This document shows positions 27,741-42,995 of a stretch of DNA of 57,919 nucleotides, piece after piece. Source of the stretch: Candidatus Zixiibacteriota bacterium. GTDB taxonomy: Bacteria; Zixibacteria; MSB-5A5; GN15; FEB-12. The translations under genes and the position numbers were made by a program. Location of the stretch: the NCBI GenBank assembly GCA_019038695.1, contig JAHOYZ010000005.1, forward strand, positions 1-57,919. Reading direction: 5' to 3'. Position 1 is the stretch's first letter, and every line of letters starts with the position of its first letter. A model generated the notes under the pieces. That model did not search any database and had not been told where the DNA came from. It worked only from the letters and a program-made list of their open reading frames with translations.

Positions 27741-28697
27741 ATGACAATCGCTAACAAAGCTGGCCCAAGATTCGGGACAGCGGTCCCTATCATACTTCTC
27801 ATTGTCGTGGGAAGCGTGTTGTGCTGTGCCATTACGTCTGTGGGTGGAGTGCCGGACGAAACATGTGCGGATTGCCACGACGAATTGGTCGCAGCCTTTG
27901 AACAAACGACTCACGGGACTTATTTTGGAGAAATAGGACGCATGGAGGGTCAGAGTTGTGAGTCTTGCCACGGTTCAGCGCTTGAGCACGTTGAAGAAGG
28001 TGAGCCAGAGAGTATCATCAATCCTGCCAAACATGATGAGTTTGGCGGCACCCAGTTGTGTCTTACTTGTCACGACGGACATACTTTCGACAACTGGATG
28101 TTCAGTGGTCACAGTGCCGCCGGAGTAACCTGCGCCGACTGTCACACAGTTCACCAGGCACACAGCTCCAAGACCAGCACGACGACCACCGAACTATGCT
28201 ATGGTTGCCACACTCAGGTCCGCGCAGAGTCATTTATGCCTTCAAGACATCCCATTGCTGAAGGTAAGATGTCCTGTCTGGACTGCCACGGTGTCCATGG
28301 AGAAGATGCGCCGCTGGCGCAAAACGGGACTGGTCGAGAACTCTGTTTCGGCTGCCATGCTGAAAAGGAAGGTCCATTTGTCTTCGAGCACGCGCCTGTT
28401 AGCGAAGACTGTATGATGTGTCATACGGCCCATGGCTCAGTGGCCAACAACCTTCTCAAGCAGAACGAGCCGGCTCTGTGTCTCAATTGTCATCCGATGC
28501 ACTTCCATGCCACGGTTGATGGCCTTGATGGGTCCTTCACGCCACCTGCCACCGCACCAGACAGGACCACCATGTCTACGCCGGACGGTTGGAAAACTGG
28601 CATGCTGACCAAATGTACACAGTGCCATACTACGGTTCATGGGACAGACCTGCCGTCCCAGTCAATTACAACCGGCGGCGGCGCCTTAACCAGATAG
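27741..28697 (+). CDS. Decaheme c-type cytochrome, DmsE/MtrA type
   Basis: 318 residues with an N-terminal hydrophobic export segment (about 13-36) and ten CXXCH sites: CADCH, CESCH, CLTCH, CADCH, CYGCH, CLDCH, CFGCH, CMMCH, CLNCH and CTQCH, with many extra His residues as distal ligands. Ten hemes in about 280 residues and a barrel gene 9 bp downstream are the pattern of MtrA/DmsE decahemes, which carry electrons through an MtrB-type outer-membrane barrel. GGAGG precedes the ATG by six bases. The export segment may stay as a membrane anchor. Confidence 0.88.
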   Translation: MTIANKAGPRFGTAVPIILLIVVGSVLCCAITSVGGVPDETCADCHDELVAAFEQTTHGTYFGEIGRMEGQSCESCHGSALEHVEEGEPESIINPAKHDEFGGTQLCLTCHDGHTFDNWMFSGHSAAGVTCADCHTVHQAHSSKTSTTTTELCYGCHTQVRAESFMPSRHPIAEGKMSCLDCHGVHGEDAPLAQNGTGRELCFGCHAEKEGPFVFEHAPVSEDCMMCHTAHGSVANNLLKQNEPALCLNCHPMHFHATVDGLDGSFTPPATAPDRTTMSTPDGWKTGMLTKCTQCHTTVHGTDLPSQSITTGGGALTR

Positions 28698-28706
28698 GAG
28701 CAGAAC

Positions 28707-30425
28707 ATGAAGAAGACAATTACATTGCTAAGTGTCTGCCTGACCGTTCTGGTTTTATCCGGTTCGGTTCTGGCAGGCGAAACGGACCAGGCCGTGACTA
28801 ATTACTCGGTCTGGATTGGTTCGCACTACACGGAGTTTACGGACAACGCTAAGAAGATCGGCGAGTATAACCTCGGCAATACTGAGATGTTGCCCGAGGT
28901 TGGTTTGGACTTGATGTCCCGATCAAAAGGCAAACTACTGAGCTTTAGCAGTTACTATTTCGATGATCAGAATATGAGAGCCATTCTTCACGCCGTATCC
29001 GGTGATCGGCTTAGTTTCGAGTTGAGCTACCGTTCAATGGTAATTCAGAACGGACAGGACCTTCTGACCAATATTGCCGCCAAGGAAGCTGCCGCTGCCA
29101 AGATGCTAACCCATGATATTACCGATCCCGGAGCCGACTACAACTACACCCGACAGGAAATCCTGAGCAAGGTTAGCCTGCTTCTCTCAGAAAAGGGAAA
29201 GGTCCGTTTCGTTGCCGCTCATCGGAGTATTCTGAAAAACGGCACCGAGCAGGCGATCGCTTCCACTCACTGTTTCAGTTGCCACCTAACATCCGAGACG
29301 GTGGCGGTTGACAAGCGGACCCATACGGTCGAGGCCGGTCTTGAGGCTGAGGTAAGCAATTTCGATGTTGGATACACCGTTGGGTATCGGCTTTTCGAAT
29401 CAGGCATGGCCGATCCTGAGGCTCGGTGGGATGAAGCAGTACATCCCTGGAATATAGATGCAGAGCCGTACCTTTCTGAATTTCCTACCCGGTTAGTGTA
29501 TTCAGACACTACTCAACCTTACGCTGCTCTGCCCAGAACAGAGAAGATATCGCACAAGGTGCGGTTAAAAGGCAAAGTGGGTAAAGGGCGCCTGGCTTCA
29601 TCGTTTGGCTACAGCAAAGCGACCAACGACAGGACCGACCTGTCCACTGACGCCTTGTCGGGGGCATTAAGCTATGCGGTGCCGTTGTCTCCCAAGTCGC
29701 GGCTGATTGCCAAGGCTTCGATGGTGCGACTAACCGCTGATGATATATTCATCGATCTGCCGACCTTCCGCGAAGGGCGCCCCGGTTGGACCGAGGACTT
29801 TGATCACACGAGATACTCTTCTTTGGATCGTAGTGTGGCGAAGGTTTCAGCGGAGTTCATAAGTCGTATTACGCCGAAGATGACCCTTTCGATTCTGGCC
29901 GGTTATGACCGTGTCGATCGTGACGACTACCCGGTACCTGATGAAGGCTGGACAACCAGCACTCTTAGGGGTCAGGCCAAGCTGCGCTACCGCAAAGGTC
30001 TGAAATACTCGACGTCTCTGAAATACCGTTTTGAAAAGACGACGGATCCCTTTATGTCCGGTCGTGGGTTCTTTGAGGATGTCGGTCGCGATCTGCTCAC
30101 CCCGGCCGGTGGTGGTTCTACTATATTCTATCACCAGCGCGAGGAGATCCGGTACCAGAACATCACAACCGAGCCAACTGTAGCTCACAAAGTTGAATGG
30201 AGTTCTTCCTGGCGTCCAACTTCGAAGGTAAATGTAAACTTCGGGGTCAAAGGATCCTATGACAAGAATAACGATCTTGACTCCCTGGACGTCAATCATC
30301 TCAGTGTTCAACCGAATCTTTTCCTGAACTTGATACCCAACAGCAGAACAGTAGTGACAGCCGGGTTCACTCTCTCGCATCAGAAATCGAGAGGTCCGAT
30401 TACGGTCGCTCTCTTCGATGGCTGA
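28707..30425 (+). CDS. MtrB/PioB-like outer-membrane barrel, part before the in-frame UGA
   Basis: 572 residues with a signal peptide (about 1-23) and alternating amphipathic strands typical of MtrB-type decaheme-associated barrels. It carries one CXXCH site (CFSCH, residues 189-193), which is unusual in a barrel protein and suggests a bound heme. The frame ends at a UGA (30423-30425) in the middle of the strand pattern, and the same frame continues open to 30881 with matching strand-rich sequence ending in Phe. Either the gene is broken here, the stop is read through, or the base is a sequencing error. TAGGAGC precedes the ATG. Confidence 0.78.
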   Translation: MKKTITLLSVCLTVLVLSGSVLAGETDQAVTNYSVWIGSHYTEFTDNAKKIGEYNLGNTEMLPEVGLDLMSRSKGKLLSFSSYYFDDQNMRAILHAVSGDRLSFELSYRSMVIQNGQDLLTNIAAKEAAAAKMLTHDITDPGADYNYTRQEILSKVSLLLSEKGKVRFVAAHRSILKNGTEQAIASTHCFSCHLTSETVAVDKRTHTVEAGLEAEVSNFDVGYTVGYRLFESGMADPEARWDEAVHPWNIDAEPYLSEFPTRLVYSDTTQPYAALPRTEKISHKVRLKGKVGKGRLASSFGYSKATNDRTDLSTDALSGALSYAVPLSPKSRLIAKASMVRLTADDIFIDLPTFREGRPGWTEDFDHTRYSSLDRSVAKVSAEFISRITPKMTLSILAGYDRVDRDDYPVPDEGWTTSTLRGQAKLRYRKGLKYSTSLKYRFEKTTDPFMSGRGFFEDVGRDLLTPAGGGSTIFYHQREEIRYQNITTEPTVAHKVEWSSSWRPTSKVNVNFGVKGSYDKNNDLDSLDVNHLSVQPNLFLNLIPNSRTVVTAGFTLSHQKSRGPITVALFDG

Positions 30426-30881
30426 GGCGGCGGTCTATCACGCGACTCAGTTGGAGACGCTAAACATTACGGTTCCATGTATACCATGGCCGATTATAAG
30501 ACCGACGTTCAGAATTTGTATCTTAGCACCAGCTGGCAGGCCTCACCTAAAGTAAACATCAATGGTATGGTTCGCTATACTATGTCGAAAGCAGAATATG
30601 AACAGGTGATAATGCCCGATGTCGAAGACCGGCTGGTCAATGATCTGGGTGATCCGGAACTTGGCCACCAGGATTTCACTTTCGATGAAATGGACCAGTA
30701 CTCAAACCTTGAGTACAAACTACTTGGCTTCTCAGCCGGCATCCAGTATCGTATCGCATCCGATGTTACTATCACACTTGATGGTGATTTTGCTGATCTC
30801 AAGGACGATGCCGGTTATGTTTATGGAGACGAAACCGGACAGATGTTTATGATCCGAACCGGTGTAAAGATGGACTTCTGA
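30426..30881 (+). CDS. C-terminal part of the MtrB/PioB-like barrel, after the in-frame UGA
   Basis: 151 codons in the same frame as the upstream part. It contains more amphipathic strands (NLYLSTSWQ, KVNINGMVRYTMS, SAGIQYRIASDVTITLDGDF) and ends in GVKMDF, an outer-membrane C-terminal Phe signature. In-frame ATGs at 30477 and 30486 lack ribosome binding sites, so independent translation is unlikely. The piece makes sense only as the end of the barrel that begins at 28707. Confidence 0.75.
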   Translation, partial: GGGLSRDSVGDAKHYGSMYTMADYKTDVQNLYLSTSWQASPKVNINGMVRYTMSKAEYEQVIMPDVEDRLVNDLGDPELGHQDFTFDEMDQYSNLEYKLLGFSAGIQYRIASDVTITLDGDFADLKDDAGYVYGDETGQMFMIRTGVKMDF

Positions 30882-30910
30882 TCGAAGGATTAGTGAGTTG
30901 TTCCATATTG

Positions 30911-30935
30911 TTGGGCCGCCATCTCGGCGGCCCAA
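30911..30935 (+). terminator. Strong GC-rich hairpin after the barrel gene
   Basis: A perfect 10-bp stem (TTGGGCCGCC with GGCGGCCCAA) and a 5-base loop lie 29 bases after the barrel stop. No long T-tract follows, but the position and strength suit a terminator or 3'-end stabiliser separating the barrel from the next cytochrome gene. Confidence 0.55.
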
Positions 30936-31028
30936 CTTGTAAATGATCGACCCTCGGAGCGTCACTTCAGTTTATCGGAACGCGGCGCGGTTAGCTCTGT
31001 TGTGGTCGGCAATCTGCGGTTTCCAAAT

Positions 31029-33056
31029 ATGAAGGTAACACTTACAAAATCATTGGCGATTGTGTTTGCAGTCCTTCTGATCTGTCCTGTGATAGCTAAC
31101 GGGCAGATCGAAAATGCCGACTGCTTGGATTGTCATGAAGAGGCTTCCGGGGAGCGAGCACCTCAGTATGATTCCTGTCTCGTGTCCTCAGTGCACAACG
31201 ATTTTTTGTGTGTTGATTGCCACAGTTCGATAGTAGAGCTTCCGCACGACGAAGAACCGACTGCTCTCGTAGATTGTGGGGAATGTCACGACACTGAGAC
31301 AGAGGTCTATCAGTGGCACGGTCGTATGAAAGTTTCTGATAGGGGAGAAGGTATCCCAACGTGTGCTGATTGCCATGGCAGACATGATATCCTGCCTGTG
31401 ACTGACATTGATTCGCGGGTCAATGTCCGAAATGTCCCGGAGACTTGTAATCGGTGTCATGAAGATCAGGACATGATTGAACAGCACGAATTACTTTACA
31501 GCAGACAAGTATTGACTGCGTTCAAGACCAGTGTGCACGGCAAAGCCTCAGGCGGCGGCGTGAGTCTCGCTGCTACTTGTAATGACTGCCATTCGACATC
31601 GGGTACCGCTCACAGGATTCTGGGTCCGGGACACCATGAATCATCAATCAACCATTTTAACATTCCAGAGACGTGCGGCAAATGTCATCCGGGAGCAAGA
31701 GATGACTTTCATGCCGGAATCCACGGCATACTGGCGACCCAGGGAGAAACAGATCCACCGGTCTGCACGAACTGTCACGGTGAGCATGGAATTCTTTCCG
31801 CTTCCGATCCGCGTTCCTTAGTAAGCCATGCACGAGTAGCAGAAGCAACCTGTTCCCCCTGTCATGAATCAGCTCGCCTCAATGCGAAGTATGGACTACC
31901 GACTGACCGCCTCAAGAGTTGGGTTGATAGCTACCACGGTTTGAAAAGCAAGGCCGGAGATGTGGCTGTGGCCAATTGTGCCTCGTGCCACGGCGCGCAC
32001 AAAATCCTTCCCAGTAGAGATCCGGAATCGCCCGTCAACGCGAATAATCTGCAAGCCACTTGCGGTGAATGTCATCCCAACATCTCCGAAAAGCTGGCCC
32101 AAACACCTGTCCACGGTACTCCCGGGATCTCGACAACACCAATTGCCGGTGTTGTGGCTGACATCTATGTCATAGCTATCATAGTTATCATTGGGGCTAT
32201 GGTGGTACATTGGCTGGCTGATCTTCGCAAGCAGATTCATCTCATCATGCTCCGGCGACAGATCCGCCGCATGACCAGAAACGAAACAGCTCAGCATTGG
32301 TTCCTGATGATTAGTTTCATCTTGCTCGTGATAACTGGATTCTCCCTGAGATTTTCTGATGCTTTCTGGGTAGAGTGGTTCTTTGGCTGGGATGGCGGAT
32401 TTCCTATGCGTGGCATATTACATCGTGTGGCTGCTGTCATATTTACGCTTTCCGCGCTCTGGCATCTGATCTTTCTGGCAACGCGCCGCGGACGCGATTT
32501 TCTCCGGGATATGTTCCCGAAATTCAGTGACTTCCGTCATTTCATGCAAATGATGAAATATAATCTGGGGTCGAAACACAAACGACCGCGCGCAGGACGA
32601 TTCAGCTATGTGGAGAAGGCCGAGTACTGGGCGTTGGCTTGGGGATCAGTTGTGATGATTGTCACCGGATATCTCCTATGGTTTGACAATGTAGCAGTGG
32701 AGTTTTTTCCCAAGGGCTTCCTTGATGTCATGCTCGTAGTCCATTACTACGAAGCTTGGCTGGCTGCCCTGGCTATTTTGGTATGGCACCTGTACTCGAC
32801 TGTGTTCAGCCCTGCGGTCTATCCCATGAACCCGGCCTGGATTAATGGCAAGATGCCGCTGGATTTCTATCAGCATGAGCACCCCGATGATCCTGCTCTC
32901 GCTGAGTACCTGTCTGAGGTATCGAACGACGATATTGTTACAATCGACGGTGATGTTCCTGGAGTAGAATCATCGGAATCTGAGAGTACCAAATCAAGTA
33001 ATGACGCTACAGTTGTTGACAAGCAAGAGGACAATGATTCACAGTCACCTGATTAG
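31029..33056 (+). CDS. 11-heme cytochrome c fused to a cytochrome b membrane domain (CbcL-like)
   Basis: The ATG at 31029 gives a good signal peptide (MKVTLTKSLAIVFAVLLIC...); the frame is open further, with GTG at 31002. Eleven CXXCH sites fill residues 30-360 (CLDCH, CVDCH, CGECH, CADCH, CNRCH, CNDCH, CGKCH, CTNCH, CSPCH, CASCH, CGECH). Five membrane helices with His pairs follow (about 375-610), like the FdnI/HydC cytochrome b. An acidic Ser-rich tail ends the protein. A similar fusion, CbcL, oxidises menaquinol for extracellular electron transfer in Geobacter. Here it would feed the decaheme and barrel encoded upstream. Confidence 0.88.
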   Translation: MKVTLTKSLAIVFAVLLICPVIANGQIENADCLDCHEEASGERAPQYDSCLVSSVHNDFLCVDCHSSIVELPHDEEPTALVDCGECHDTETEVYQWHGRMKVSDRGEGIPTCADCHGRHDILPVTDIDSRVNVRNVPETCNRCHEDQDMIEQHELLYSRQVLTAFKTSVHGKASGGGVSLAATCNDCHSTSGTAHRILGPGHHESSINHFNIPETCGKCHPGARDDFHAGIHGILATQGETDPPVCTNCHGEHGILSASDPRSLVSHARVAEATCSPCHESARLNAKYGLPTDRLKSWVDSYHGLKSKAGDVAVANCASCHGAHKILPSRDPESPVNANNLQATCGECHPNISEKLAQTPVHGTPGISTTPIAGVVADIYVIAIIVIIGAMVVHWLADLRKQIHLIMLRRQIRRMTRNETAQHWFLMISFILLVITGFSLRFSDAFWVEWFFGWDGGFPMRGILHRVAAVIFTLSALWHLIFLATRRGRDFLRDMFPKFSDFRHFMQMMKYNLGSKHKRPRAGRFSYVEKAEYWALAWGSVVMIVTGYLLWFDNVAVEFFPKGFLDVMLVVHYYEAWLAALAILVWHLYSTVFSPAVYPMNPAWINGKMPLDFYQHEHPDDPALAEYLSEVSNDDIVTIDGDVPGVESSESESTKSSNDATVVDKQEDNDSQSPD

Positions 33057-34707: not shown

Positions 34708-35163
34708 GACTTACTCCTTGCTATTCGGTTTCATTATTGTCATTAGGCTGCAAGCTCAAGAAAGATAACAACAATACAGATATGATCTGTTCCCGGTTGT
34801 TGTGCTGCTTGCTAAAATTAGTCACGATAGGTCCTCATGTCAAGATTGTTATTGTGCTGGGATAATCATCGAGAGTCGGAAAGGGGATCACATCCCGAAT
34901 AGGGATCCCGCGTTCACAGAAAACAAAGTTTCGTATCTAAGATGCAACACCAACTTCTCTGAGATTCAGTTGTACTTTCGTATAGAGCGAGGCATCAAAT
35001 GGAAAGACCTCTCAAGCTAAGCATAGTGAACCGAAGTGTTGCCACTTCAAGCTGAGGAGAGCGGTATCAGTCAGAAAATTTACAATCAAACTGTGAAATA
35101 TGCGTTGCGTTTGGCACGGAAGGCGAGCATATTGAACACATCGTCATTTAATAGGAGGTAGTT
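34708..35163. other. Intergenic segment upstream of the nonapeptide-repeat gene
   Basis: 456 bp between divergent genes. I see a strong ribosome binding site (AGGAGG, just before 35164) but no convincing promoter. A TTGGCAC at 35111 looks like the -24 box of a sigma-54 promoter, but no -12 GC lies at the right distance. No gene is recognisable. Confidence 0.5.
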
Positions 35164-36354
35164 ATGGCTACGAAGATGAGTGGATCCCCGCGCAAGAATA
35201 CCTGGGTATTCCTTGGCGGCGGACTGGCAGTTGTGGTCATCTTGGTCTTGTTTGTCGCTTTTGGCGGACAGGGGCCATCTGATGATGAAGCTCGCGGTAC
35301 AATCGGAGTTGCCGAGACATATCGCGCCGAGCAAATATCTGAAGACGACGTCATTCTTGACGATCCCGAATTGCAGTCAGTATTGCAGAGTGACGACTTC
35401 CAGCGACTGATTGCTGATGAGGACTTCCAGGAATTGATGGGACACCAGGACTTCCAAATGCTCCTGGCCGATGAGGTTTTCACGGAGATGCTTGGTAACG
35501 CAGGCTTCCAGGAATTGATGCTACACCAGGACTTCCAAATGCTCCTGGCCGATGATGTTTTCGCGGAGATGCTGGGTCACGCTGGTTTCACAGGAATGGC
35601 TGGTCATGCTGGCCTTGTTGGCCTTGCCGAGATGATGAGTCATGCTGGGGCCAGCACAATTTTGGTGGACAAGGGCGTCCAAGACTTGCTCAACCACCAG
35701 GGATTTGGCGAGGCCATGACGCATTCGGGGTTCCCGGAGATGTTGGGAAACGCCGGCTTCCAGGAGATGATTACCCACGAGGGATTTCAGGTGATGATGG
35801 TCCAAGAAGACTTCTCTGAGATGTTGGCCAAACATGGAATGTCTGAGATGCTGTCACACGCCGGCATTAACTTGCAACTCGCCGACGAGAATTTTTTCCA
35901 GATGCTGAATCAGTACGGCTTCGACAGATTGATATCACACGCCGGCACCCGCGAAATGCTCAGTCATGCCGGCATAAATACAATGCTTAGCCATGCCGGA
36001 CTCGCCACGAGTCTTTCCAACCAGGATTTTGTTAAGATGCTTAACAACCAGGGTTTCCTCGAGTTGCTTACCAATGCCGGCTTTCAGGAGATGTTAAATA
36101 ACGCTGGATTTGGCGTGATGATGAAGCACTCCGGATTCCCGATAATGCTTGGCTATGCTGGCTTGGAGAGGACTCTTTCACACCAGGGTTTATTAACTAA
36201 GATGCTCGGCAACCAGGGTCTCCTGAAGGCTTTGAGCAATACCGGTTTCCAGAAGGCTATGACCCACGCTGGATTCAAACGCTCCTTAGCTCATCAGGAA
36301 TTCATGAAGGAGATGATTGCCCATGCCGGTAAGGCCGCGACGATCGAGAAGTAA
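35164..36354 (+). CDS. Membrane-anchored protein of 35 nonapeptide repeats
   Basis: 396 residues. A short basic N terminus and one helix (14-34, WVFLGGGLAVVVILVLFVAF) predict an inside N terminus with the rest in the periplasm. After an acidic linker (35-76), residues 77-396 consist entirely of 35 repeats of nine residues with consensus (A/Q)-G-F-x-E-M-L-x-(H/N/D). Three units carry one to three extra residues. Position 2 is Gly in 25 units, and position 9 is His in 17 and Asn in 8. The array is rich in Met and His and has no Cys. I do not recognise a family. The regular His/Met pattern could bind metal or heme or form a solenoid; this is inference. AGGAGG precedes the ATG. Confidence 0.85.
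   Translation: MATKMSGSPRKNTWVFLGGGLAVVVILVLFVAFGGQGPSDDEARGTIGVAETYRAEQISEDDVILDDPELQSVLQSDDFQRLIADEDFQELMGHQDFQMLLADEVFTEMLGNAGFQELMLHQDFQMLLADDVFAEMLGHAGFTGMAGHAGLVGLAEMMSHAGASTILVDKGVQDLLNHQGFGEAMTHSGFPEMLGNAGFQEMITHEGFQVMMVQEDFSEMLAKHGMSEMLSHAGINLQLADENFFQMLNQYGFDRLISHAGTREMLSHAGINTMLSHAGLATSLSNQDFVKMLNNQGFLELLTNAGFQEMLNNAGFGVMMKHSGFPIMLGYAGLERTLSHQGLLTKMLGNQGLLKALSNTGFQKAMTHAGFKRSLAHQEFMKEMIAHAGKAATIEK
35392..36351 (+). repeat. 27-bp coding repeats (35 units), with an 81-bp recent duplication
   Basis: Unit length is nine codons throughout, with extra codons only in units 9, 30 and 34. Most units differ in sequence, so the array is old, but units 2-4 and 5-7 share long identical stretches exactly 81 bp apart (for example TTCCAGGAATTGATG at 35425 and 35506), showing growth by three units at a time. 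Confidence 0.9.
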
Positions 36355-36514: not shown

Positions 36515-39448
36515 ATGTCTAAATACATTATTGCTCTCGTAGCGGCGATTGTCCTGGTAATTGGCCCTGGAACCCGTGCCCAGTTCCAATCTCTCGAAAC
36601 CGAGAACATGCGTTTGTTGTACAACGAGGTTACACAAGCCTACCTTGCGCCTCATGTAGCCCGGTGTTTCGAAAACGCAATGAAGTTCCACCGTGAACTG
36701 CTAAATTACACACCATCCGAAAAAGTCACTGTAACTATGTTCGATATTGCTGACTATGGGAACGCCGGGGCAGCGGCGGTTCCGGAAAACAGGATATCGT
36801 TATTGGTGGCGCCTATCAGCTACGCCTACGAGACTTCACCGGCGAATGAACGGATGAATACATTCATGAACCACGAGTTGGTTCACATTGTGGCACTGGA
36901 CCAGGCAACCGGCCGAGACAAGTTCTTCCGCAAGATGTTCTTTGGAAAAGTGAGTGAGACTTCGGATAATCCCCTGTCAATACTTTACGGTTATATGACC
37001 AACCCTCGCCAGGCAGCCCCGCGTTGGTTCCATGAAGGGATTGCTGTCTTTTTAGAAACCTGGATGGCCGGCGGCATCGGACGTGTTCAAGGGGCTTACG
37101 ACGAGATGGTGTTCCGAACCATGGTGTTGGATAGCAGTTCGTTCTATGACCCTATCGGGGTTGAATCACATGGATCCCAGACGGATTTTCAGGTTGGAGT
37201 TGTATCGTATCTATATGGAACTCGGTTTTTCAGTTACCTCGCCCTGCACTATGGTCCGGAAAGTCTTATTGACTGGGTGGCAAGAGTTGGAGGTAGCAAA
37301 GCATATGTCATATCACAGTTCAAGCAAGTCTACGACATGGGACTGGGTGACGCCTGGAACCAGTGGATTGATTGGGAACACGAGTTTCAGCAGGTCAACC
37401 TGGATAGTATTCGGCAATATCCGATAACTCCCTATCGTGACCTCTCCCCAATAGCTCTTGGCTCTTTGTCTCGTGCTCAGTATGACTCAGTGTCAGGTGA
37501 GATATATGTAGCCGTGAACTATCCCGGGGAAGTAGCTCACATAGCTGCGATAAGTATCAGTGATGGATCGATACGGAAGTTGTGCGATATCAAAGGGGCA
37601 GCTCTTTACTATGTGTCGGCCATGGCCTTTGATCGTCACCGACATCAACTTTTCTACACAACAGACAATGACGACTGGCGCGATCTGAGAGTTATTGATA
37701 CCAGAACCAAGCAGACCCGCACCCTGCAGAAAGACCTCAGGATGGGTGATCTTGCCTTCAATGAGAATGACAGCTCCTTATGGGGGGTTCGACATTACAA
37801 CGGCATCTCCACGCTGACCCGTGTCCCCTATCCCTACGATGACTGGAATCAGATATATTCGTGGCCCTACGGTAAGGACATCTATGACCTGGATATTTCC
37901 AGTGACGGCAAGATTGTGACCGCCGCACTTTCGGAAATCTCCGGACGACAATCTCTGATTGCCATGAACATAGACTCTCTTGTGGCCGGTGACTCGTCGT
38001 ACTCCACACTATTTGAGTTCGGTCACAGCATTCCAGCCGGTTTCGTGTTCTCTGACGATAATCGATTCCTGTATGGCTCCTCGTACTACTCGGGGGCTTC
38101 CAACATATTCCGCTATGACTTCAAGCTTGATTCGATGGAAGCCTTGAGCAACTGCGAGACCGGGTTGTTCCACCCGATCCCTGTCTCACAAGATTCCATG
38201 ATCGCATTCAGATATACTAGAGATGGATTCCTGCCGGCTATCCTTCCCCACCGACCATTGGAAGACATTAGCGCCATCACATTTCTTGGTCATAAAATCG
38301 CCAGGGAATATCCGATTGTGCGAGACTGGAATGTCGGTTCTATGGCCGACATCAATCTCGATTCTCTCACCGTCAGCACAGGGAACTATCATGCTCTGGC
38401 AAATTTCCGGTTGGTGTCAATGTATCCCATCGTTGAAGGTTATGGCGAGTATCCAGCTTATGGTTTTCGGGTCAATCTCGAAGAGCCGGTTGGATTCCAC
38501 AGTTCCGATATGACCGTTTCATATACTCCGAATCAAAGCTTGCCCCAGGAGGAACGGTGGCATGTTGGCTGGCACCATATTTATCTGAACTGGCAATTCT
38601 CGTTTAATTACAATGGAGCTGATTTCTACGATCTATTCGGACCCACCAAAACAAGCCGCAAAGGATACTCGGCGGGTCTCCTATACAAAAGGACGCTCCT
38701 GTACGATCTGCCGCGTGTGATGGACTATCGGCTGAGTTTGACCGGCTTCGGTGGCCTGGAGAAAATGCCTGATTACCAGAATATTGCGACTACTTTCGAT
38801 GAGTTCGTTACCCTTAATGGTGCCTGGACCTACAAGAACCGGAAAGCCTCTTTGGGAGCGGTGGATCACGAGAAGGGAATACTGTGGAATCTCACTTCGA
38901 ACAACACCTATGTAAATCGCAAACTCTACTCCAAGTTTGCTACTCGATTTGATTTCGGGATTCCCTTGTCCCTGCACCATAGCTCCATCTGGTTGAGGAC
39001 CTCAGCAGGCTATGCACCGGGAGACAGGGACAACCCGTTCGCCAATTTCTTTTTTGGAGGATTTGGCAACAACTGGATTGATTATAAAACCGAAAAACGC
39101 TATCGTCAAACTCATGCTTTTCCAGGGGTTGAGTTGAATGCCATAGGCGGCACCAATTTCGCACGGGCCGTCCTAGACTTGAATCTACCTCCAATCCGTT
39201 TCCGTCATCTTGGCTGGCAGGCGCTTCATATCATGTGGATCAGGTGTTCACTTTTCTCAACAGTTTTAAGCACGAATCTGGACAACGAGGAGTATCGCAC
39301 CACGTATTTCAATGCCGGTACTCAGCTTGATCTGAGGTTCAAGCTGCTTTCCCGACTGAAATTGACTTTCTCGGTTGGTTATGCAGCAGGTTTTGATGAA
39401 CAAGAGTACTTGTCCGATGAGTTGATGGTCTCTCTGAAGGTGCTTTAG
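36515..39448 (+). CDS. Outer-membrane metalloprotease with propeller and barrel domains
   Basis: 977 residues. A signal peptide (about 1-22) is followed by a gluzincin-type peptidase domain with the zinc site H120-E-L-V-H124 and a third ligand in WFHEGIAVFLE (Glu174). Residues of about 310-640 show repeated propeller-like blades (YYVSAMAFDRHRHQLFYT, DLDISSDGKIV). The last 300 residues are strand-rich with aromatic belts and end in LMVSLKVL, like a surface-antigen/BamA-type barrel. The whole would be an outer-membrane-anchored protease with a sensing or docking propeller. Substrate is unknown. No strong ribosome binding site is seen at ATG 36515. Confidence 0.8.
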   Translation: MSKYIIALVAAIVLVIGPGTRAQFQSLETENMRLLYNEVTQAYLAPHVARCFENAMKFHRELLNYTPSEKVTVTMFDIADYGNAGAAAVPENRISLLVAPISYAYETSPANERMNTFMNHELVHIVALDQATGRDKFFRKMFFGKVSETSDNPLSILYGYMTNPRQAAPRWFHEGIAVFLETWMAGGIGRVQGAYDEMVFRTMVLDSSSFYDPIGVESHGSQTDFQVGVVSYLYGTRFFSYLALHYGPESLIDWVARVGGSKAYVISQFKQVYDMGLGDAWNQWIDWEHEFQQVNLDSIRQYPITPYRDLSPIALGSLSRAQYDSVSGEIYVAVNYPGEVAHIAAISISDGSIRKLCDIKGAALYYVSAMAFDRHRHQLFYTTDNDDWRDLRVIDTRTKQTRTLQKDLRMGDLAFNENDSSLWGVRHYNGISTLTRVPYPYDDWNQIYSWPYGKDIYDLDISSDGKIVTAALSEISGRQSLIAMNIDSLVAGDSSYSTLFEFGHSIPAGFVFSDDNRFLYGSSYYSGASNIFRYDFKLDSMEALSNCETGLFHPIPVSQDSMIAFRYTRDGFLPAILPHRPLEDISAITFLGHKIAREYPIVRDWNVGSMADINLDSLTVSTGNYHALANFRLVSMYPIVEGYGEYPAYGFRVNLEEPVGFHSSDMTVSYTPNQSLPQEERWHVGWHHIYLNWQFSFNYNGADFYDLFGPTKTSRKGYSAGLLYKRTLLYDLPRVMDYRLSLTGFGGLEKMPDYQNIATTFDEFVTLNGAWTYKNRKASLGAVDHEKGILWNLTSNNTYVNRKLYSKFATRFDFGIPLSLHHSSIWLRTSAGYAPGDRDNPFANFFFGGFGNNWIDYKTEKRYRQTHAFPGVELNAIGGTNFARAVLDLNLPPIRFRHLGWQALHIMWIRCSLFSTVLSTNLDNEEYRTTYFNAGTQLDLRFKLLSRLKLTFSVGYAAGFDEQEYLSDELMVSLKVL

Positions 39449-39548
39449 AACGATAGAACTCAAGTCAGAAATTCTTTGACTTCGCATTAGTCGGCACCTT
39501 AGCTTGACATAACAGTGAATCAGAGAACACTATCATGACCGGCGGACT

Positions 39549-39953
39549 ATGGAACGCGAGTTTCGCAGAAGCATTGACAGTCTTGATGACGTATTCAGTT
39601 TCGTCGAGGAATGTGCCTCCGCCTACAGTCTGGACGATACAATCAGGCTCCCCCTCAGTCTAGCTATCGAGGAGGCATTCACTAACGCTGTCAGGCACAA
39701 TTTTAGCTCACATCAGAGCCTCTCACTTAGTATTGTTACTGATGATCGAACCATTGTCGTTAACTTGATCGACCGCGATGCCAAACGATTCGATGTTGTG
39801 TATCCCGGGCCGGAGGACATCGATTCTCGCCTTCGGCAGGGAAATCCGGGAGGCCTGGGATTGCATTTAATTCGGGTTTTCATGGACAGCGTCGATTTTA
39901 CATACAAGAATGGAAACAGCATAATCACCATGACAAAGAACGTGGATAAATAA
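39549..39953 (+). CDS. Anti-sigma-factor-type serine kinase (RsbW/SpoIIAB-like)
   Basis: 134 residues of GHKL ATPase fold. The N box is LAIEEAFTNAVRHN (about 40-53), and the G boxes are DRDAKRFD and GGLGLHLIRVFMDSV (about 100-115). Such kinases bind a sigma factor or a STAS protein and phosphorylate the latter. The STAS partner gene begins two bases after its stop codon. It is the first gene of a regulatory block that also has an ECF sigma factor, though RsbW-type kinases usually act on other sigma types. Confidence 0.88.
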   Translation: MEREFRRSIDSLDDVFSFVEECASAYSLDDTIRLPLSLAIEEAFTNAVRHNFSSHQSLSLSIVTDDRTIVVNLIDRDAKRFDVVYPGPEDIDSRLRQGNPGGLGLHLIRVFMDSVDFTYKNGNSIITMTKNVDK

Positions 39954-39954
39954 C

Positions 39955-40239
39955 ATGTTTGATATCACGATGACAGATGATGGAAGCGTATCACTCGTGG
40001 GCAGACTGGACGCTGCTCAAGCCAGAAAGGCAGAGGAAGTACTCGCCAAAATATCCAGTCCACTTCGAATAGACTTTACCGGACTTGAGTACATTTCCAG
40101 TGGTGGCTTGTCTGTTCTGCTGATTACATACAAGCGATTGAGTGATCAGGGCCACAGCCTGAAACTGGTGAACATGAGCCCTCATGTCCGCGAGGTGTTC
40201 CACTATGCGCGTCTGGACAAGGTCTTTGACATTGAGTAA
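39955..40239 (+). CDS. STAS-domain anti-anti-sigma factor (RsbV-like)
   Basis: 94 residues. The STAS signature is present: VGRLDAAQARKAEEVL near the N terminus and IDFTGLEYISSGGLSVLL, where one of the two Ser residues (about 48-49) is the expected phosphorylation site. It would be inactivated by the kinase encoded just upstream and released by a PP2C phosphatase, which is not in this window. Confidence 0.92.
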   Translation: MFDITMTDDGSVSLVGRLDAAQARKAEEVLAKISSPLRIDFTGLEYISSGGLSVLLITYKRLSDQGHSLKLVNMSPHVREVFHYARLDKVFDIE

Positions 40240-40319
40240 TCAGGTAATGATCCGTTTTTACGTATATTTGACCGGAGATTCATATTTCTCACCAACCTCC
40301 CTGTCGGAAGATGGTATTT

Positions 40320-40877
40320 ATGACAGAAGCTGATAATGATCATGATAGAACCTTGGTACAGGATTGTCTCGCAGGCGATCTGAAAGCCTTCGAGGTGCTC
40401 GTTGATAAGTATCAGAAACCGGTATTCAATGCCGCTCTGAGGATCGTAGGTAATGGTGATGATGCCCAGGATGTTTCGCAAATGGTATTTACTAAGGCGT
40501 TTGAGAAACTTCAGAGCTACGACCCGAAATACAAGTTCTTTAGTTGGGTGTATCGAATGACTATTAACGAATCTCTTAACTGGATCAAATGCCGGAAGCC
40601 TCAGAGTGAGATTCCAGAGAACTTGGCATCCACGGCTCGCACGCCCGAGGAACAATATCGTCGGAAAGAGATTGATCAGGTGGTTGAGGATGCCGTTGGC
40701 GAACTCCCTCTTGATTATCGTATGGTCGTAGTCTTCAGACATTTCGTAGACCTCACATATCGGGATCTGAGTTTCGTACTTGGTATTCCCGAGAAAACGG
40801 TTAAGTCACGCTTATTTTCCGCGCGACGACTACTGGGCCAGGTGCTTCGCAAACGAGGGATGGTAGGATATGATTGA
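40320..40877 (+). CDS. ECF-type RNA polymerase sigma factor
   Basis: 185 residues from ATG 40320, chosen because GGAAG lies nine bases upstream (the ATG at 40311 is too close). Region 2 is NAALRIVGNGDDAQDVSQMVF and FSWVYRMTINESLNWIK; region 4 is LPLDYRMVVVFRHFVDLTYRDLS followed by the helix-turn-helix IPEKTVKSRLFSARRLL. There is no region 1 or 3. The next gene overlaps its end by eight bases and encodes a membrane anti-sigma candidate. Confidence 0.94.
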   Translation: MTEADNDHDRTLVQDCLAGDLKAFEVLVDKYQKPVFNAALRIVGNGDDAQDVSQMVFTKAFEKLQSYDPKYKFFSWVYRMTINESLNWIKCRKPQSEIPENLASTARTPEEQYRRKEIDQVVEDAVGELPLDYRMVVVFRHFVDLTYRDLSFVLGIPEKTVKSRLFSARRLLGQVLRKRGMVGYD

Positions 40878-41673
40878 TGACAAAATTGTTGAACTGATGA
40901 ACAAGGTGATTGACGGAAGCGGATCTGCTGACGACAAAGAGGACTTGGAGAAGCATCTGGCAGAAAACGCAGAGGTCCGAAAATACTACGACGATCTCAA
41001 GGCCACCGTCTGTATTCTTGATCAAGTGGGAGCAGTGGAGCCCCCTTCAAATCTCAAGTCCAATGTCATGCATTCGGTTCGTCAGCACTATCAGACCAAT
41101 TCCAGAGAAGAATCTTCTCCGCGACAGACGATCGTTGAAATCGTGCGGAGTGTATTGAACCCACGCTATGGGCTAAGTTTCGCTGCCGGCGCAGCGGCAG
41201 CGCTCCTGGTCTTTTCGTTGTGGACCGGAAGCTCCCTGGAGGGAATGAAAATGGACCCCTCACATCTGGCTGGTACTCTTATGCTTGATGGCATTTCCGA
41301 GGGACTGGTAGCGCTTGACCGGGACGCCTTCGATCTGGACGGTGTGAGTGGCTCAATTGAATCACGCGTAACCGGCAAGGCTCTGTTGATTGATATCAAA
41401 GCTCTGGCAGTCAGGCCAAATGAAATTATCCTGGAGTTCGACCCGGAACAATACAGATTTGACGGCTTCCGACAGCACGACAATCCTGAGAGTCAGATTG
41501 CTGTCAAGAGTGGGCTCGTAACAATGAATCTGGTCGCTCAACACCAATACACTCTCATCTTTGAAGTTCTCGTGGACGAACCGACCGAGACTATGAATTG
41601 TCGTGTTTGCAGCGAAGGCTTGATGTATGAGGAACAACTGGAAACCAGAGCCCAGCAGAAGAAGAACAAGTAA
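40870..41673 (+). CDS. Membrane anti-sigma factor candidate
   Basis: 267 residues. The cytoplasmic N-terminal part (1-95) is acidic and helical like an anti-sigma domain (LMNKVIDGSGSADDKEDLEKHLAEN...), but it has no HxxxCxxC zinc motif. One helix (about 99-117, LSFAAGAAAALLVFSLWTG) is followed by a periplasmic domain of 150 residues ending with CRVCSEG. The eight-base overlap with the sigma gene supports the pairing. Release may need proteolysis, and a PrsW-like gene lies next downstream. Confidence 0.75.
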   Translation: MIDDKIVELMNKVIDGSGSADDKEDLEKHLAENAEVRKYYDDLKATVCILDQVGAVEPPSNLKSNVMHSVRQHYQTNSREESSPRQTIVEIVRSVLNPRYGLSFAAGAAAALLVFSLWTGSSLEGMKMDPSHLAGTLMLDGISEGLVALDRDAFDLDGVSGSIESRVTGKALLIDIKALAVRPNEIILEFDPEQYRFDGFRQHDNPESQIAVKSGLVTMNLVAQHQYTLIFEVLVDEPTETMNCRVCSEGLMYEEQLETRAQQKKNK

Positions 41674-41898
41674 TTGGATTAATATGCGACCAGCGACAAG
41701 AAACACACCAACATCCATCTGGTTCGAATGTAATTTAGTCAAACAGCTACTGGCACATCGAGTCGGTCAGTCGGCACCGACCAGCCCTCAGGGGCAGGAT
41801 ATACTGGCTTGATTGGAAGTGTCGCGCTGAAATGTCGTTAAACGTATTCGACATGACATATTGAGACGGACGGGGAAACGGTGCTCAGGTAGTTAGTT

Positions 41899-41936
41899 GC
41901 AAGAAATGCTGTCGAGATAATCGACAGCTTTCTTGC
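41899..41936 (+). terminator. Rho-independent terminator after the sigma operon
   Basis: GCAAGAAA-T-GCTGTCGA, loop GATAA, TCGACAGC-TTTCTTGC: sixteen base pairs with one bulge and A/T-rich flanks. It ends the sigma/anti-sigma unit and lies just before the PrsW-like gene, which argues that PrsW has its own promoter and a start downstream of the longest frame. Confidence 0.75.
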
Positions 41937-41999
41937 GTGCTGTTCTATAACATAGATTTGGATCAATCATATGTCTTATGCCGCAACGGGAGTCAGCTC

Positions 42000-42995
42000 T
42001 TGAACATCGCGGTTGGCCTTGTACCGGTATGTCTGTTCCTGGTGGCATTGATTTTCTTGGACAGCTTCAGACTCGTGAGACCCCGGACAGTAGGACTGTC
42101 TCTCCTGGTCGGTGGGATTGTGGCCATCGTATGCATGTTTCTCAATCGCTGGTTGATTGATCTTCTACCGTTATCCACTTCCACCTTCTCAAGATACCTG
42201 GCGCCAATTGTTGAGGAAGGACTCAAGGCGGTGTTCGTTGTTTGGATGCTTCGTACCCAGCGGGTTGCCTTCGCTGTCGATTGTGCAATCGTCGGCTTTG
42301 CGGTTGGAGCAGGCTTTGCCCTTGTCGAGAACATCTACTATTTGCAGAATCTCTCTGTCGCAAGCCCGTTCGTCTGGGTCGTTCGTGGACTCGGTACTGC
42401 CGTCGTGCATGGCAGTACGACCGCAATCCTCGCGGTACTGGCAAGGATTCTCTTGCAACAACACCCGGATCATTTCCGATCAATGATACTGATTAGCCTC
42501 GGTCCGCCAATATTCATACATGCCGTTTTCAATCATTTTCTTCTCCCACCATTGTTCATGACAGCGGTTATTTTGATCGTTCTGCTGCCGCTGACGGCGA
42601 TTGTATTTGCTCAAAGTGAACGAGCCACCCGCCAATGGCTGGGCGTCGGCTTCGATACTGATATGGAACTTCTGGAGTCGATTACATCAGGCGATATCCG
42701 AAACACTCGTGTCGGAACCTACCTGGCATCTCTGAAAGATCGGTTTCCGGGAACTGTTGTGTCTGACATGTTGTGTTTGCTCCGTCTGCAATTGGAGTTA
42801 TCTCTGGGCGCGAAAGGGATCCTCCTGATGCGGCAAACCGGTATAAAAGTACCCCCCGATCCTGAGGTCAAAGCCAAGCTCATTGAGTTGGAGTACCTGG
42901 AAAAGAGCATTGGACGCACCGGTCAGCTGGCCATGACCCCGATGTTGACATCAAGTCGCCGCGACCTATGGCAAACGTATATGCTCAAAGAGTAA
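42000..42995 (+). CDS. prsW: PrsW-family intramembrane metalloprotease
   Basis: About 331 residues from TTG 42000, chosen because GGGAG lies eight bases upstream and the first helix then begins at once; the frame is open back to GTG 41937, but that start abuts a terminator hairpin. The family motifs are visible: APIVEEGLKA (EExxK), FALVENIYY, and FIHAVFNHFLLPP. Seven or eight helices cover residues 5-220; a soluble tail of about 110 residues follows. In Bacillus, PrsW cuts the anti-sigma factor RsiW. Here the anti-sigma candidate just upstream is a plausible substrate. Confidence 0.82.
   Translation: MNIAVGLVPVCLFLVALIFLDSFRLVRPRTVGLSLLVGGIVAIVCMFLNRWLIDLLPLSTSTFSRYLAPIVEEGLKAVFVVWMLRTQRVAFAVDCAIVGFAVGAGFALVENIYYLQNLSVASPFVWVVRGLGTAVVHGSTTAILAVLARILLQQHPDHFRSMILISLGPPIFIHAVFNHFLLPPLFMTAVILIVLLPLTAIVFAQSERATRQWLGVGFDTDMELLESITSGDIRNTRVGTYLASLKDRFPGTVVSDMLCLLRLQLELSLGAKGILLMRQTGIKVPPDPEVKAKLIELEYLEKSIGRTGQLAMTPMLTSSRRDLWQTYMLKE

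Follow-up and report, generated by a model that had tools for sequence, protein, structure and literature searches.

What is a membrane protein for when nearly all of it is one nine-residue unit repeated over and over, and with which genes does it work? The question is raised by a gene in a 57,919-nt stretch of a Candidatus Zixiibacteriota genome (assembly GCA_019038695.1, contig JAHOYZ010000005.1, positions 1 to 57,919; hereafter the window). The reading favoured here, with a probability of about 0.6, is that a self-contained envelope-signalling cassette, governed by an extracytoplasmic function (ECF) sigma factor, has this repeat protein as its main output, and that the protein would serve in the periplasm as a holdase or scaffold, tethered to the membrane and acting together with an outer-membrane protease. 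The gene and its parts are:

35164..36354, + strand: repeat protein gene, 396 amino acids (aa), with membrane anchor, juxtamembrane module and 36 nonapeptide units
35203..35262, + strand: single membrane anchor, residues ~14-33; a hydrophobic segment present in all relatives
35275..35358, + strand: juxtamembrane module, residues 38-65, P..D..G.IG.A..Y.AEQ.T..DV.L; the family's most conserved part
35362..36348, + strand: array of 36 nine-residue units, about residues 67-395

The gene and its conserved cassette

The open reading frame (ORF) translates without an internal stop, and its one hydrophobic segment is flanked by Lys/Arg on the N-terminal and Asp/Glu on the C-terminal side, which under the positive-inside rule predicts an N-in/C-out protein and agrees with the single anchor and periplasmic repeat domain proposed in an earlier, sequence-only reading of the window. 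Related genomes preserve the N-terminal 110 residues but not the array; family-wide, conservation is confined to the anchor and the GTIG...KYRAEQIT..DV stretch, with the anchor and G.IG.A..Y...Q.T..DV.L.....Q.LLQ.D invariant. In profile searches no family of Pfam or NCBIfam matched the window protein above cut-off, and no solved structure did either, so that the earlier impression of a repeat outside any known family stands. CofH_C, Sulfatase and other Pfam matches were dismissed as sub-cut-off and each confined to one member. The tblastn matches to phages and plasmids, at 19-27% identity and low-complexity in style, were set aside, and viral contigs gave none.

The sequence-only reading had placed the gene beside multiheme cytochrome genes, which is correct for the window, but these are not conserved neighbours in relatives, and the real context lies downstream, at 36515-42995. 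Searching the flanks of relatives with the window's genes (tblastn) delineated a cassette of seven genes, encoding an RsbW-like HATPase, a STAS protein, an ECF sigma factor, an anti-sigma factor, the repeat protein, a 977-aa outer-membrane protease and PrsW. Its synteny recurs in Zixibacteria and in other phylum-level groups, which answers the earlier suggestion that conservation of the locus be checked. In most relatives the repeat gene sits between the anti-sigma and PrsW genes, while the window has a rearranged order (repeat protein, protease, then RsbW, STAS, sigma, anti-sigma and PrsW). Its partners in the window are:

36515..39448, + strand: 977-aa predicted outer-membrane protein with gluzincin-like metalloprotease domain, PD40/TolB-like propeller and C-terminal barrel
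39549..39953, + strand: RsbW-like HATPase (partner-switching kinase), HATPase_c_2 3.3e-18; conserved in the cassette
39955..40239, + strand: STAS-domain (RsbV-like) protein, STAS_2 6.6e-15
40311..40877, + strand: ECF sigma factor, sigma70 regions 2 and 4 only; start probably 40320
40870..41673, + strand: membrane anti-sigma factor, overlapping the sigma gene
41937..42995, + strand: PrsW-type intramembrane protease, PrsW-protease profile PF13367

The sigma factor is reduced to regions 2 and 4 and co-encoded with a membrane anti-sigma factor, as is characteristic of an ECF cassette. The PrsW homologue matched PF13367 at 2e-20 (cut-off 23.5 bits), and its EE93-94, E131-N132, H158, H195 and H200 are invariant in five aligned homologues. 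The outer-membrane protease gave sub-threshold matches to Peptidase_MA_2, PD40 and Omp85_2, and its metalloprotease residues H120, E121 and H124 (HExxH) and E174 are invariant in four aligned homologues. In every locus where both ends are present, L106 included, its gene immediately follows the repeat gene. Among 54 genomes of the window's family the module was found in 10 and the protease in 11, with all ten coinciding and the eleventh protease lying at a contig start, a coincidence expected by chance at 5e-10 if genomes were independent. The same-genus genome G001 is without module, protease and PrsW; G098 has PrsW and no module match, its contig starting inside an array of 9-mers.

Single loci showed further variation. 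In L105 a GAF-SpoIIE (RsbU-like) phosphatase lies upstream, and an extra 146-aa membrane-anchored protein (L105:5378-5818) with its own promoter motif copy (5295) is encoded between the anti-sigma and repeat genes. L106:4232-8429 is a second repeat-protease pair in genome G320, with no sigma, anti-sigma or PrsW gene nearby.

Evidence for sigma control came from a promoter motif, whose copies in the window are:

34950..34977, + strand: candidate ECF-type promoter (CCAACTT-N14-TGTACTT), 187 nt upstream of the repeat gene; motif at 34951
40292..40319, + strand: imperfect promoter motif copy (CCAACCT...TGGTATTT), directly before the sigma gene
41700..41735, + strand: candidate ECF-type promoter (GAAAC-N5-AAC..TGTAATT) in the interval separating the anti-sigma and PrsW genes; motif at 41709

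The motif (ECF-type consensus CAACTT-N14-TGTAWT) was first spotted by eye upstream of repeat genes, and the pattern CAAC[AT]-N-[TG]GTA[ATC]T was then scanned in the 260 bp before them. It was present upstream of 19 of 40 repeat genes, against a mean of 0.06 and a maximum of 1 in dinucleotide shuffles and an expectation of 0.005 per region from the remainder of the same loci. Since it was derived partly from Zixibacteria members, it is independently supported by those loci of other phyla in which it recurs (L139, L141, L143, L144, L145, L148, L152, L153, L155, L156 and L109). Perfect copies end 1-11 nt before the start codon of the ECF sigma gene in 11 loci, and as a motif directly before the sigma gene is the usual mark of autoregulation, the sigma factor most likely regulates itself and drives the repeat gene. 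The motif carries AAC in its -35 box, as is typical of ECF promoters (PMC8103513), the window's sigma-gene copy being imperfect; in the rearranged window locus the separated target genes each have a copy (34950, 41700). Genome-wide scans of nine genomes gave few other sites, near control level, so that the sigma factor seems to serve mainly its own cassette. Candidate targets outside it were set aside, most of the sites checked falling inside ORFs; elsewhere in the window's genome, a looser motif ~130 bp upstream of a DUF4097-like beta-helical exported protein (L104:3859-4770) may be due to chance. It is thus very likely that the repeat gene belongs to the cassette and is under the control of its sigma factor.

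The array and its exchangeable period

The autocorrelation of the window protein peaks solely at lags 9, 18, 27, 36 and so on, with 32% residue identity at lag 9 versus 3-7% at nearly all non-multiples, and the period-9 z-score against shuffles is 20 for lag 9 alone and 30 for lags 9, 18 and 27 pooled. The sequence-only reading had counted 35 units from residue 77; ungapped segmentation keeps the repeat and revises its extent to 36 units that cover 98% of residues 67-396, the first being DPELQSVLQ at residue 67, while the three small insertions seen earlier are confirmed by 32 of 35 junctions being exactly 9 residues. The DNA of the units has largely diverged (Tandem Repeats Finder reports just a 27-bp and an 81-bp unit, at ~2 copies apiece), and the ratio of nonsynonymous to synonymous differences between units (pN/pS) is 0.64 in the window and 0.12-0.5 in relatives with regular arrays, which argues that the repeat is selected as protein and is not a product of DNA slippage.

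The consensus of 427 units from Zixibacteria members, [DNSTH][PAE][EAGD]F[ARQ]x[LIAM][LMAF]x, has the pattern of a helix N-cap, often with Pro at N1, followed by hydrophobic residues at i, i+3 and i+4. Position 1 is His in 17 of the 36 window units and Asp, Asn, Ser or Thr in most relatives, so the His, Asn or Asp noted earlier at every ninth position is there in the window, but frequent His is particular to this species. Position 8 is mostly Leu, Met, Phe or Ile (Ala 16%), Met makes up 8.8% of the window array versus 2.5% of neighbouring proteins, and the window array has no Cys. A continuous helix would turn its hydrophobic face by 180 degrees per unit and breaks are therefore expected; AlphaFold2 models of two members, of low confidence, show ~7-residue helices with 2-residue breaks in a 9-residue register. 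The array is probably a string of short capped helices. Its units lack the calcium-binding consensus GGxGxDxUx of RTX beta-rolls and the window protein matched no RTX profile, in line with the earlier view that only the period is shared and that the sequence is unrelated and helix-prone.

Structural comparisons offered likenesses of several kinds. Foldseek on the AlphaFold2 models returned TAL effectors without significance. The only family recurring across 9-mer members was STI1-HOP_DP (PF17830; five of eight in Zixibacteria), which scored above cut-off in four further 9-mer members; the values were 1e-24 (L142, the best), 1e-17 (L144), 2e-14 (L143), 9e-10 (L145) and 1.9e-7 (L041), with no single stretch significant, and weak profile matches to the PDB include STI1/Hop structures. 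As predicted for the array, STI1/DP domains (Sti1/Hop, ubiquilin, SGTA) have short helices with Asn/Asp-Pro caps ~9-10 residues apart and a hydrophobic, often Met-rich face, but each is one domain of ~55-70 residues in a soluble eukaryotic co-chaperone, whereas the arrays consist of 20-60 units in tandem behind a membrane anchor, in bacteria. The 12-residue relatives in the cassette matched MgtE_N above cut-off, although the repeat protein is no transporter and has a different anchor. I take the STI1 and MgtE_N matches as hints of a short-helix solenoid, not of family membership. The spore germination protein GerD, with weak profile matches, is likewise membrane-bound and helical with a related short-helix pattern; unlike the array it is a short lipoprotein forming a trimeric rope (PMC11841064), and it does not share the cassette context.

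The module was matched in 14 of 132 genomes of the window's phylum, Zixibacteria (one weakly), and in a wider genome set in four other phylum-level groups, with 16 of 82 genomes in the phylum of G320, 21 of 80 in that of G302 and the one genome in that of G188; G209 also carries loci. A separate collection scan found loci of named source, mostly metagenome-assembled genomes of Candidatus Zixiibacteriota. At the same operon slot other lineages have units of 12 residues (RATLQEKAAIFG, KPEERFAIFERF) or 11 (VDAATIEAVKS), one genome has 8-residue units (QVIPALER) and in another the array is nearly absent; defining the family strictly by nonapeptides was abandoned when the 11- and 12-mer members appeared. 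Protein size ranges from 203 to 1135 aa. G209 has three short paralogues with few units each, and L108:6339-8473 encodes three tandem module-protein paralogues (203-215 aa) that have only a handful of 9-residue units, adjoin the same protease and PrsW and are possibly the ancestral short form.

Proposed mechanism and rival explanations

The anti-sigma factor would hold the ECF sigma factor until envelope stress led to PrsW-type cleavage of the anti-sigma factor, to RsbW/STAS partner switching, or to both, the cleavage being perhaps gated by the RsbW/STAS pair, and the freed sigma would then transcribe its own gene and the repeat-protease(-PrsW) operon. Anchored in the inner membrane, the repeat protein would extend its array into the periplasm and dock its module on a membrane partner, and the array would offer the hydrophobic surfaces, Met-rich in this species, of N-capped, STI1/DP-like short helices. 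Analogy with the Met-rich STI1 groove and with chaperone-protease pairs, which occur in other envelope responses, makes it the likeliest role of the array to hold segments that are hydrophobic or unfolded, but this step is tentative and falls short of even odds. The groove of ubiquilin STI1 is Met-rich and binds transmembrane segments (PMC13083928).

Several points weigh against this reading. Predicting the structure of the array, as the sequence-only reading had advised, did yield short helices every 9 residues, but the mean predicted local distance difference test score (pLDDT) is 44-45 in both models and the fold is thus not established. For repetitive proteins an STI1 score is a sum of short matches inflated by the repeats, unrelated families score on the same proteins too (Ribos_L4, 1.6e-15), and the STI1/HOP DP profile (PF17830) does not match the window protein. 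Enrichment in Met is not shared by all members (0-3% in L105, L143 and L109), and periods of 11, 12 and 8 do not resemble STI1, so that a holdase groove is not obviously conserved. The mechanistic steps are, moreover, predictions from sequence and models.

The restriction of conservation to the anchor and ~30 juxtamembrane residues, next to free variation in array type and length, would also suit a substrate or sensor of regulated proteolysis, in which PrsW or the outer-membrane protease recognises the module, the array is a sacrificial or force- or length-sensing extension, and cleavage reports the state of the envelope to the anti-sigma factor. Two proteases are co-conserved with the repeat protein, whose topology resembles that of the single-pass anti-sigma substrates of PrsW, which cleaves RsiW (PMC3498285). 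I nevertheless consider this unlikely: the repeat gene is a predicted sigma output, which is more typical of an effector, L106 retains the repeat-protease pair with no adjacent sigma or PrsW gene, and purifying selection on the units would not be expected of mere filler. Somewhat less probable again is a rod linking the inner membrane to the outer-membrane protease or barrel encoded next door. The gene for the inner-membrane-anchored array always stands directly upstream of that for the outer-membrane protein, and 36 short helices could reach a sufficient length; array length, however, varies more than fivefold and the short paralogues of G209 have few units, so that no fixed span is measured.

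A membrane-anchored fibre in the form of a trimeric alpha/beta coiled coil of nonads, as in Tcar0761, is suggested by the top PDB profile match (5apz, a nonad construct, E 0.023), by the many consecutive 9-residue units, and by the similar hydrophobic spacing of the Tcar0761 nonads, IANMATKDD (PMC4786415). I regard it as improbable: Ala at the centre of each beta-layer in Tcar0761 contrasts with mostly Leu, Met or Phe at unit position 8, the 11- and 12-residue relatives in the cassette cannot share that geometry, and Tcar0761 has no anchor module and lies outside the cassette. The metal, heme or cytochrome-linked role contemplated in the sequence-only reading drew on His at position 1 and on cytochrome genes within 2-8 kb, and has to be given up as very improbable, since position-1 His is conserved in no relative, the relatives' loci are without cytochrome genes and the array has no Cys; the residues that relatives have at position 1 fit a helix N-cap better than a ligand.

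The cytochrome genes form, by their sequences, a cluster of extracellular electron transfer type at 27741-33056. A GSU2203/DmsE-family decaheme cytochrome (27741-28697, + strand; 1.1e-97) lies directly upstream of a GSU2204-family porin-like protein, and a cytochrome b561-multiheme fusion is encoded at 31002-33056. The ORF of the GSU2204-family CXXCH (seleno)protein (28707-30881, + strand) ends at an in-frame TGA (30423-30425, codon 573), which, read as selenocysteine, joins it to the in-frame ORF 30477-30881. What suggests this candidate reading is the family name and the frame; the strand just downstream of the TGA shows no folding beyond that of shuffles (z -0.35).

The open-access literature searched yielded no description of the cassette, of its anchor module or of one repeat period replacing another in the same slot. 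The components of the cassette are of known kinds: like the SigW-RsiW-PrsW system of Bacillus it has an ECF sigma factor, a membrane anti-sigma factor and a PrsW protease, but it adds RsbW/STAS partner-switching genes, the repeat protein and an outer-membrane protease, and it occurs in Gram-negative phyla. A broader view, which I hold to be possible but doubtful, is that of a widespread trans-envelope signalling system in which one operon slot takes unrelated short-helix arrays (8, 9, 11 or 12 residues) behind a conserved membrane module, a physical property (helical string, hydrophobic surface, extensibility) being selected and not sequence. Two logics of anti-sigma control, partner switching and PrsW-type proteolysis, meet in the cassette, which suggests a stress output comprising the repeat protein and the outer-membrane protease. 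The prediction that its sigma factor acts at these promoters is directly testable, and the change of period at a constant operon position amounts to an unusual natural experiment on the selection of tandem helical arrays.
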